Shown piece by piece: positions 17,001-23,000 of a stretch of 64,000 nt of DNA. Where the stretch lies: positions 43,648,757-43,712,756 of the forward strand of contig OZ029913.1 in the NCBI GenBank assembly GCA_964023275.1, in the 5' to 3' direction. Source of the DNA: Norana najaformis (taxonomy: Eukaryota > Annelida > Clitellata > Crassiclitellata > Hormogastridae). Position 1 is the first letter of the stretch; every line of letters begins with the position of its first letter. The translations under genes were made by a program, and so were the position numbers. Below the pieces are notes generated by a model. The model saw nothing but the letters and a program-made list of their open reading frames with translations. It was not told the origin of the DNA and made no database searches.

Positions 17001-20000
17001 CCTTTTGCAGATTTATCACTTTTTCTTCTGCTCTAAGCAATTGTCATTGTTGGTGAAACAACACCACCCAACATCACTTTCAGTTTTATTTGAAAAGTCA
17101 GATTCATTAGTACGAATGCCACTTACATCCTATGTACTGTTGGTCCTGCTACTCATAAAAGCATGAAATCCTTCAAAATTGACCCTTCATCCGACTCCAA
17201 ATTACTGGAAATTGTATGCTAATTTCATATTTTTTGCTGTTGTAGTCATAAAAAGTGCAGGCAAACTGAAACAGATTGCCACTTCAGGTCTAGTATCTCC
17301 ACATGTGTGTACAAATAACCAATAGAAAATTGTAGCCTGTTATCACCCTGTTAATGGTGAACTCGTTCACATAGGACGAATGCTGGTTCATCAGCTTCCA
17401 ACTGCTTTAGTAAGCAACCTATTATGTTGAAATTTTGTGCCTGTGATGCAAGAGGAAAGTTTTTCTATGTCGCAATTTTGCACGTGTGGTATGCAATGGG
17501 TTAAGAATATTATTACTGCCACCAAGACAATGACACCACTGACACCAAGAAAAACTGCTAGAACAAAAACCAACACCAACAATGACATCATCAACACCAA
17601 GAACAACAGAAGAAAACCAACACCAACAATGACACAATTGCCACCAAAAACAACAGAACAAAACCAACACCACAATGACATCATCAACATCAAGAACAAA
17701 AGAACAAAAACCATCAACATCATCAAAATCACGAACTGAACAAAACTGCCACCACTTAAACACAGAAAAGGATGGCAACTCTATACACATTGCTAACTCA
17801 CAAGTGAGAATACCAATCTTTCAACCATACCTTCTCACCACTCGAGTAGAAGAAGTAGAGCAGCCTCACAATGTTCTGATGGTCCAGCTTCCTCATGATC
17901 TGCAGCTCACGATTCTGAACATTGACAAATTCATCAGTAGTCAGTGTTTGAAAACCATTCTGTTCAATTGTGCTATGTTCTATCAGCTCAGCCAGGAGTG
18001 CTTCAGAGGAATTTCCCTAGTGGCAGCACTATATAAATGTATGATTACAATGCACAGATGCTTGTACACTACATGTTTATGGGCAAGCTGGCAGGAACAA
18101 CTTCTATACTGTCACTAGAAAAATGCACAGATTATCAATCAGTGGTGCACCAATGTCTATCTACAAAACCGGTCATTCCCAGGTCAGTCCGAAGATCTCA
18201 GTAATGTATCCAACATTCTGTTATTTCACAGAGGTAACTAACTGCTCTCAGATAAACATTTAAGATTTAGGGTAGAGCTTGCATAGGCCCAAGCATAAAA
18301 TCTAATTGCATTTGTGAAAAATTATGCAAACACAATTTTTTCAGATTATCTAATCTAATCCAATGATTTCTATAGTGCTGTTATCATAATACACTTCAAG
18401 CAACCATCAACTGATGGTTGCTTTATGTGCAAGCCCGGCTAAAATGCGATATGTCAGAGAAACCTTAATGACATCAGAAACATTGGGAGGTTGAAGCATA
18501 TTTTGGCTGAAGCAAAAACAAAGACTAGATTAGTGTTAGATACATAGCGTTGATTAATTACCTTGAACCTTTTATCCTGCAAGACTTTTTTAATGGCAAC
18601 CAGTTCACCAGTGTTGCACAGCCTCGCCTGGTAAACAACTCCGAATGAACCATTTCCAATCACTTTTGCGTCCATGTAGGAAACCTCCGAGGCTCGGTCA
18701 GGCCCCTGCCCGGGGGTTGCATAAACTGTTGTCACTTTGCTACCATCTTTACCTAAAATTCATGTAAAAGAACCACAATTTAGAGATAATGAAACCAATT
18801 CGTGTCAAATCAATTCAGCATATCAACCTGACCCCATCAAGCCTTTTCCTGTGTTAGGCTTTCCTCCAGGAACAGTCTTCCACTACAAATATGTACTGTA
18901 GCATTTGACTACATTTTCATTTACATTTGCCTTGCAGTGTACCTGTTTAGATCAATTAGCCCAGGTAGTATCTGTACGGGTGACTGTCCTCGGAATACCA
19001 TGTCACCTGGCACACTCAGCCATCCATCCTTGATTGCATAAACTGTTGTCACTTTGCTACCATCTTCATCTAAAATGAATACCTCTGCTGTTCTACAAGG
19101 CTGCATTTTTTGGCTCTTTTGATTTCAAATGAGCTCTTCTGATTTCAGAGACAGTGTATCAGCTTTCTAGCAACTCTAATGTCTGCTGTTAACAACCATC
19201 ATGTTTAGGAGCATATAACACTGGTCAACATAGAAATCGTTACTGACTGGAAAAGGCCCTAATGTGTAGCATCTTGGTGTGCTGAACACGAATATAACCA
19301 TAAAAAAATTTTATTGGCTCTCGTTTTGAAAATATTTCATATAGTTCATTTTTTATGTTTCACCATGTAAATTTATGCAGTAGGACTGCGACAATATCCT
19401 AAATAAGTATAGAATGATGTAATATTCCACCTCATTGCATAATCCCATCATGGACACATCATGCACAGTTGATTACGTCATTTTCTGATGCAATGTAAAA
19501 CTACAGCCAGTCGGCTGCTGACGTAAGATGACGTCAGCAGTGTACTATATAAAGCGAGTCGGAACGGTTGAGCATTTACAATATTACAGACTTTGTGCGA
19601 GACAGTTTAAGTTACTGTTTTATAAAACTATTATTACTTTATCCATTTAGATACAATACAGAACAGTAATGCCTCGGAAGTGCGTAAATACTGTGGACAA
19701 CTTTTGTTATATTTGTGGGGAAGTGACATTTGCCAACCAGAAGAAAAGTATCACTTATCAAGTCAAGAAGGCATATCATGCTTACTTCGAATGCAAGGTT
19801 GGTGACCAAGACAAGCCATGGGCCCCGCATATATGCTGGGCTACATGTACAACACAGCTTTCACAGTGGTTGAATGGCAAAAGACCATCAATGCCGTTTG
19901 CAGTTCCCATGGTGTGGAGAGAGCAAAGCAACCACGTAGATGACTGTTACTTCTGCTTGGTTCCTCCTCTTTCCGGTGGAATAACGAAGCAAAAGAAGTC

Positions 20001-23000
20001 GACAATAGTCTACCCAAACATTCCGTCAGCATTGAGACCAGTTCCACATGGTGATGGACTTCCTATTCCAGAACCTCCAGCAGAATATATTTTCCTTGAT
20101 TCATCTGATGAGGACAAGGGTGAGCCGACATGTTCTTCTCCTGGTCCGTCAGCATGCAGTGATCCCGATTTTCACTGTGGTGCATCATCAACCCCACACA
20201 GAATAACACAGGAAGAACTAAATGACCTTGTTCGTGATTTGGACTTATCCAAAAACAAGGCAGAATTGCTAGGATCAAGACTCCAACAATGGAATCTTCT
20301 AGAAGAAGATGTCACAATTACTTCATATAGAAAGCGCCATCAGCAGTTGGAACCTTTCTTTATGAAGGAAGGTAATCTGGTATTCTGTTCCAATATTGAC
20401 GACCTCATGAATGCCTTACAGATCACTCATGACCCACAAGAATGTAGACTCTTCAACACTGAGTCTTAAAGGCTGTGCTTTTGCACAATGGAAATCGTCT
20501 TCCATCTATTCCATTAGCGCATGCTGTCCACATGAAAGAGACATACGATGACCTAAAACAGCTACTGCATTCCATTAACTATAACAGGTACAAATGGCAC
20601 CTGTGTGGTGATTTGAAGGTAGTTGCCATTTTAATGGGACTGCAGCAAGGATATACAAAATATATGTGTTTCTTGTGTGAGTGGGATAGCCGAGCAAGAG
20701 AGTTGCACTACGTGCGGAAGGAATGGACTCCCAGACAAAACATGGCAGTTGGACAGAAGAATATCCAGCACCCAGCTCTGGTCGAGGCTCACAAAATCCT
20801 ACTACCACCCCTTCACATCAAACTAGGTTTGGTGAAGAACTTCGTGAAAGCCATGGACCGCACTTCGCCAGCTTTCCGATACCTGCATGAAAAATTCCCT
20901 CGACTCAGCGAAGCAAAGATTAAAGAGGGAGTTTTTGTGGGTCCTCAGATTAGAGAACTCTTCAAAGATGACCGCTTCAACAACTTGCTGGAGGGTGATG
21001 CGAAACAAGCATGGAATGCTTTTCGTCTAGTGTCTACAGACTTTCTGGGGAATGTTAGGGCAGAAAACTACAAGGAACTAGTAGAAGACATGCTCAAGCA
21101 GTACCAGAAATTTTGCTGCAATATGTCTCTGAAGATGCATTTCCTTCATTCCCATCTGGATTTCTTCTCTGACAACTGTGGTATGGTTAGTGACGAACAT
21201 GGTGAACGTTTTCATCAAGATATCACAACAATGGAGCAAAGGTACCAGGGAAAATGGTCCACTACAATGTTGGCTGACTACTGCTGGACACTCCGCAGAG
21301 ATGCTTCCGAACAGCTGTACAAGAGACAGGCAAAAAAATCTAAGAACTAGTCTATGACCTGGTTTTTACAAATATTAACTGTAAGTGTATCACTATTGGC
21401 ATGCATTGTGCGATATAAAATTACTTCATTTCAGATTACAAAAAAACTAGAGCCAATTCGGCATTTTCACTGTCATATTCGTGTTCAGCACATACAAATT
21501 GATAAGAACTGACTAATTTCATTTCAGTAACATGACTTTTGTAAAAATTTGTTGTCCAGTGATAATCTATCCAGGTATTTGACCAGCGTAGCTCACCTTG
21601 TGACCCGACCTAATTCTGAAAACTAAAACTAAAAACCACATGACCAAACTATTTGGTCTACACAAAAGTGATGACTCAGGTTCACCTTCTACTCTTATAA
21701 CAGTAATGTCTGCTAACACAGAAACTAGCATGCATGCATGTATGTGAACCACCTGAAGGTTCAGTGCATATCTTGTTAAAATGCCCACAGACATAAAATG
21801 TATGTAATATGTAATATATAAAATGTATTACTGAAGCATATTTGTTCTTGCCAACCAACATTCAACTTTCTGAAATAGACCATTTCCAGTTATAATTTGT
21901 ACGAGCACACTCACTAAACCAAAAGGAACACATTTAAAATCCAAAGAGCTTCCAATGTGCTGCTTGCATACATATATACATACATGCATGCTTACATATG
22001 TATGTATGCCTAGTACCTTTTAACAACATCTCAAAGGTGATGTACAAATATCCAAATACATACACACACACACTTCTATGCATGAGTTCAAGCAACTGTC
22101 TTTGTAATGAAATATCGGTTGTTGGCTGTCTTTATGTCATTTTGATGGATTATAACACATAAACATGAAACTTGCTTGATAAATCTGGCAGTTTGGACTT
22201 TTACTGTTGCTGAGTGTGCAAGTCAGTTTTCAAAAATGGATTTACTGCATTTCAGATGGTTTTTGTTGCATGTTATCGTGACCTTCAGTGACTGGAAAGG
22301 ACCACCTACAGAGGGGGCGATAGGATTTCAGCTGGACAGTCAAGCCTCTGACCTGCAGACCTATGTATGCCGTCTACGCCAGGAAATCTTGGTATTGGTG
22401 GTAGAAGCACGGACAGTCTCTGGAGAGATACCAACCATCAATCATGGAATGGCTATGCCTACCAGCTGGCGGGCGATGAATACTTGTCTTCCCTATACCC
22501 AGTAGTTAGAGGGATTTTCGGACGCCACATTGTCTTCCATCTATGATGGACTGCAGTGATACAATCACTGAACATAGTGTCATCTTTCAACTCTAGATAG
22601 TTGAGATCTGTTCATAGGGCTCTGTGTGTGCACAACCTTGCCACTGGTGACTCTTCTATTTATATGAGCAACATTTACTAATGGATGAATTTCATTTTTA
22701 TGACATTTCTTTAAGCGGCAATATAAAAATTTCTGATTACAATTACATTGCCTAGGTGGATAACTCATGATAGGAAGCACAAAAACCTCAAAATATACTC
22801 AAATACACATATACATACATATATAGCCACTATATATATATACATATATACCTAGAGCATACAAACATACCCAGTACACGCATTACATACAAGTATACAT
22901 ACACATATACATACACAAATGGTGACCTAGCAAGTTGCACTTGTTCAGGTTTTGGCTGTGGATAAGGCAATTCGCCGCATTTAACATCATGCAAAAAGTT

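Follow-up and report, generated by a model that had tools for sequence, protein, structure and literature searches.

A defective copy of a probable Chapaev3-type transposon in Norana najaformis, and palindromic bases at family junctions that suggest failed excision

The 64,000-nucleotide stretch analysed here (contig OZ029913.1 of the earthworm Norana najaformis, positions 43,648,757 to 43,712,756; hereafter the window) carries a DNA transposon beside an exon of the GSK3 gene. We give a probability of roughly 0.8 to the reading that this element is a defective member of a young Chapaev3-type cut-and-paste family, high in copy number and part of the CMC/Transib clade, and that the extra bases found between element end and target-site duplication in many genomic copies are P (palindromic) nucleotides from failed excision. 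With somewhat less assurance we favour the proposal that the Chapaev3 transposase cuts like RAG1, forming hairpins on the flanks, that abortive excisions occurred at about one third of the copies, and that the genome retains some hundreds of fossil P-nucleotide junctions from 'open-and-shut' events, mainly at the right end (scaling 26 of 82 sampled copies up to about 889). If true, the Chapaev branch would gain RAG-type flank hairpins on the evidence of genome sequence alone, failed excision would prove common, the opening of hairpins in an animal germline could be read from sequence only, and hairpin-forming transposases would become scorable in any genome with enough young copies. The element itself is ordinary and its Chapaev3 family is unnamed in the libraries used; the palindromic junction bases are the unexpected part, of specialist interest. 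That a DNA transposon encoding a zinc-finger plus RNase H-like DDE protein lies here had been proposed in a first-pass annotation of the window, and this was borne out by the genome copies and the predicted fold.

Copy number, age and target sites

The genome searched (608 Mb in 17 contigs) is also the source of the window copy. An exact 29-base left end occurred 889 times genome-wide (496 + 393), against 0 for the control. When the first 123 bases were used as the left-end query, all 123 were identical at 18 of the best 40 scored places among 1028 candidates, the window not counted; for the right end plus its inner arm, every one of the best 40 scored places among 456 candidates was a 100% match. 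Forty loci were fetched, picked by identity to the left end and including the window locus, and 22 of them held a 563-aa frame. In a second, less biased sample of 20 copies (alternate places of a coordinate-ordered list from contig C1), the 563-aa frame was present in eight and an exact right end in 15, one of the latter being internally deleted to 1029 bp. Most complete copies were 2353 bp long or a few bases off. Mean pairwise divergence among 30 near-full-length copies was 0.8% (0.43% from the column majority), and their singletons were spread over the codon positions (38, 43 and 31), as expected for copies free of selection after insertion. By these sequence measures the family is young and high in copy number, and it may still be active. 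Internal deletions with both ends retained were seen in L058 (1029 bp) and L025 (1706 bp), and L032 holds two copies in tandem, the first truncated after about 1.1 kb.

Junctions were read in a pool of 82 copies drawn from two sets. The first began as 60 larger loci and yielded 44 distinct copies (three loci repeated the same copy, and 13 had no acceptable match at an end under the mismatch limit); the second gave 38 usable copies out of 40, two having no recognisable right end, and 20 of the 40 had been preselected for an exact match at both ends. Exact TTA or TAA duplications flanked 41 copies, a further 26 had TWA with one to three extra bases on a side, and nine had other exact 3-bp duplications. 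As the first-pass annotation had suggested, an empty site could be used to deduce the duplication: one copy (L030) sits in a tandem array whose repeat unit is 41 bp long. Adjacent units there read uninterrupted TATTA-TAA-CC with a single TAA, against a TAA on either side of the inserted element, and so provide a paralogous empty site that shows a duplication of 3 bp. A candidate empty site for L038 in L011 was rejected as a low-complexity match of 69% identity.

Palindromic bases at the junctions

The extra bases of the 26 copies lie at 30 junctions, 22 right and eight left, the commonest length being two bases (13 of the 22 right junctions). The base adjoining the duplication was palindromic to the flank in 27 of the 30 junctions and the second base in 20 of 24. 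Among the first 44 copies, 14 had extras, 11 of which were the exact reverse complement of the adjoining flank (a first-set count allowing four bases also took in L036, an exact TAG duplication). In the second set, four copies (L093, L105, L111 and L139) carried palindromic bases on the flank side and a single odd base on the element side. Two null models were compared. Random bases placed beside a true duplication matched the palindrome at rates of 0.31 (first base) and 0.32 (second base). Unrelated right flanks without a duplication were called 'extra' in about 4 of 82 cases (approximately 5%), with match rates of 0.50 and 0.63, which are high because the flanks are A/T-rich; against this second null the binomial probability was 4e-6 for the first base and 0.03 for the second.

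The identity of the second base was also associated with the middle base of the duplication. Right-end junctions combined TTA with A in ten cases and with T in one, and TAA with T in six and with A in one (Fisher 0.0025). Genome-wide, the right end followed by WA and TWAT was found at 64 places, of which 56 fit the palindrome (AATTAT 42, TATAAT 14; Fisher 7.6e-8). On contigs C3-C17 alone there were 43 places (one of them, in L013, had been fetched earlier by our reading of the table), 36 fitting and seven not.

These patterns suggest that the extra bases are P nucleotides from a RAG-like failed excision, with the hairpin cleavage inferred. In the mechanism we propose, the 12-bp termini and the subterminal repeats of about 44 bp would let the transposase bring both ends together, and the element would be excised and inserted, for the most part into A-TWA-T targets, with duplication of 3 bp. 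During cleavage the flank would be hairpinned; its hairpin would then be opened off-centre, leaving P bases, and the opened flank would be rejoined to the same element end, a failed excision of the kind termed 'open-and-shut' in V(D)J recombination. Strand transfer joins the 3' end of the element directly to the target, and bases that mirror the flank would therefore arise afterwards. RAG and HzTransib are described as hairpin-forming complexes in structure titles, and the hAT enzymes Hermes and Kat1 form hairpins on the flank according to the accessible part of PMC4763223. A literature search, mostly without subscription papers, returned nothing relevant on P nucleotides at the ends of transposons or on open-and-shut events there.

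Repair of the insertion gap could likewise yield flank-palindromic bases between element and duplication, if the polymerase filling the 3-nt gap snapped back on its own end and added a few bases with no re-cleavage. We consider this unlikely: because strand transfer would join the 3' end directly, the extra base would need a mismatch on one strand that was fixed later, and neither the excess of right junctions (22 against eight) nor the odd base beside the element in several copies is readily explained. Rather less probable again is that the extras are longer or shifted duplications of 4 bp or more in A/T-rich targets, produced by no special mechanism. Several single cases can be read in this way, including the window copy (ATAA/ATAA). 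However, in six right junctions where the base preceding the left duplication was not A and a longer direct duplication predicts G or C, the extra base was A in five and T in one (L097), and the genome-wide second base follows the middle base of the duplication. Carry-over of donor flanks was rejected, since the right extras would then be expected to start with T and most of those listed start with A.

Several observations weigh against failed excision of a Chapaev3-type element as the explanation. Six of the 82 copies had no recognisable duplication, and the A..T setting of the target was a majority, not a rule (12 of 20 copies with exact duplications and 14 of 26 targets after reconstruction). 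In the second set, 12 of 38 copies had extras, five fully palindromic and seven not, and those of L095, L097 and L113 do not fit a palindrome. Given the match rates under the second null, the sampled copies offer modest evidence from the second base. Eight of the 64 genome-wide junctions were discordant (TATTAT 6, AATAAT 2), and 21 of the 64 lay on the two contigs that supplied most fetched copies. Shuffling flanks between copies gave no separation (398 of 2000 shuffles reached the observed count), an uninformative comparison, as each right flank retains its own palindrome. Finally, hairpin chemistry for this transposase is argued from sequence, not experiment.

Placement in Chapaev3 and the transposase

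As described in the accessible part of PMC4079192, Chapaev3 elements have CAC..GTG termini, TWA duplications (always between A and T in that paper's set) and C(2)C, LH and H(4)H motifs, and a silkworm Chapaev3 element measures 2289 bp and encodes 556 aa. The earthworm element resembles the Chapaev3 elements Merrow, Garfield and Conan of that paper in its CAC..GTG ends, its TWA duplications, mostly between A and T, its motifs and its size (about 2.3 kb and 560 aa). Its single exon is shared with most other Chapaev3 elements, Merrow and Garfield having two, whereas its long subterminal repeats and palindromic junction bases go unmentioned for Chapaev3 in the same accessible text. In passages of two further papers, C(2)C and H(3-4)H unite Chapaev, CACTA, Mirage and Transib as CMCT (PMC12730594), and a Transib superfamily takes in Chapaev3, whose 'Chapa' zinc finger is N-terminal (PMC4411706). 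The first-pass annotation took it for an unnamed family of a kind rarely assigned to a superfamily; that it lacks a superfamily is contradicted by its termini, TWA duplications, motifs, length and fold, which match what has been published on Chapaev3. The probable placing was made from this description rather than from Repbase Chapaev3 proteins, which counts against it.

Transib and RAG1 proteins (ProtoRAG, HzTransib) were 9-15% identical to the transposase in alignments and, unlike in those systems, no second gene was seen in the 2.35-kb element. Transib was rejected by duplication size, which is 5 bp in Transib elements and 3 bp here. The same measure rejected hAT, for which duplications are usually 8 bp in the accessible text of PMC12730594. 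A sister lineage within the CMC/Transib clade, itself unnamed and sharing ends, TWA targets and motifs without being Chapaev3, appears improbable. It would be compatible with the Pfam results, in which the two window protein pieces matched no family at E<=1 and 84 homologs gave only weak, scattered matches (zf-AD in 4 of 84, best 0.0017; RAG1_imp_bd in 3 of 84, best 0.23), and with the lack of any named reference sequence in the comparison; the termini, TWA duplications, C(2)C/LH/H(4)H motifs, size and fold nevertheless all agree with Chapaev3.

The transposase is a 563-aa protein encoded by a single exon and intact in many copies. Across the same 84 homologs, C337xxC340, L385-H386 and H494x4H499 were invariant (84/84), as were D264, D318 and E513/E516. 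The fold predicted for intact copies has an RNase H core and is RAG1/Transib-like, in keeping with the first-pass annotation, and would hold a putative catalytic DDE triad of Asp264, Asp318 and Glu513 or Glu516; we favour Glu516 as the final acid by the spacing to RAG1 E962. The N-terminal domain, called zinc-finger-like from the outset, is Cys/His-rich in intact copies, and the five best structural matches to residues 1-139 (L010:992-1408, + strand) were all ZAD domains. This resemblance to the ZAD (zf-AD) domains of zinc-finger transcription factors is a modelled one, hinting at a possible shared origin. The lists of Protein Data Bank (PDB) fold matches for the N-terminal domain contained no RAG1 chain, which excludes nothing. 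Searching the PDB by sequence returned nothing relevant for the second window piece and no match for the 84-sequence profile, and none of 100 pattern matches in viral contigs was confirmed by tblastn.

Ends of the unit and the window copy

Boundaries common to the fetched copies define the unit (Table 1). The inverted arms that the first-pass annotation had taken as the ends do exist: each spans 50 nt, the two are 78% complementary, and their outermost 18 nt pair perfectly. They start 59 bp (left) and 69 bp (right) inside the element and are separated from the 12-bp termini by 47 bp and 57 bp. Both arms were kept in 34 of the 40 fetched loci, window copy included, and the bases directly outside them were common to all 34; in two of these (L043 and L044) the right side diverged within 25 bases of the arm. 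Matches to the window began at 19195-19218, mostly at 19214-19218, and stopped at about 21560-21570 in most loci with a right end. CACTGG...CCAGTG termini were present in 30 of the 34 two-armed loci (CCAGTA in one of the 30), the right end being missing in the other four. Because the shared sequence continues beyond them, the inner arms are internal to the element, and they are probably best seen as subterminal repeats that serve as transposase-binding sites. Strong as the arms are, a unit ending at 19278 and 21492 can be dismissed, since all 34 two-armed loci share sequence outside these points and both matches and duplications end at 19219 and 21561; the complete unit is accordingly not 2.2 kb long, as first annotated, but 2343 bp in this copy.

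Table 1. Features of the window copy (positions in the window).
Feature	Position	Strand	Remark
Complete transposon unit	19219..21561	+	2343 bp here; boundaries common to fetched genome copies
Left terminal inverted repeat CACTGGTCAACA	19219..19230	+	11/12 bases match right end
Right terminal inverted repeat TGTTGTCCAGTG	21550..21561	-	
Left subterminal inverted repeat (first annotated as an end)	19278..19327	+	putative transposase-binding site
Right subterminal inverted repeat (first annotated as an end)	21443..21492	-	putative transposase-binding site
TATA-box-like TATATAAAG	19546..19554	+	putative transposase promoter
Transposase frame, part 1, 266 aa	19669..20469	+	zinc-binding N-terminal domain to broken first catalytic strand
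Frameshifting 10-bp deletion (~20454/20455, Asp264 lost) and premature stop	20455..20469	+	by comparison with 563-aa copies
Transposase frame, part 2, 291 aa	20475..21350	+	second Asp, C(2)C, LH, H(4)H, final Glu
Target-site duplication TAA, left	19216..19218	.	
Target-site duplication TAA, right	21563..21565	.	one base away from element
Extra A between right end and duplication	21562..21562	.	palindromic, P-nucleotide-like; a 4-bp ATAA duplication fits this copy equally well

The two window frames together resemble one protein, which reads RLF-NTES-stop at the deletion, with Asp264 absent and the frame shifted relative to its relatives. Judged by its sequence the copy is dead, and its description as near-intact does not hold, with 10 bp and an invariant Asp missing. 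As for the promoter first annotated, the TATA-like motif is present upstream of the start codon at 19669 and its function is putative. A second copy 31 kb upstream (L037, G000:C1:43636722-43640322) has the length and the 10-bp deletion of the window copy at 0.17% divergence. As its flanks are unrelated, a dead copy has therefore moved, presumably mobilised by transposase supplied in trans.

GSK3 is encoded by the minus strand and has a kinase exon near 18.6 kb; the transposon, put by the first-pass annotation in intron 1, is upstream of this exon and antisense to the gene. A 43-bp piece that reads as part of the GSK3 exon on the minus strand (18717-18759, ..GSKVTTVYA..) is repeated at 19034-19076, 317 bp away and at 95% identity, the second piece lying between exon and transposon in what is a possible partial exon duplication.
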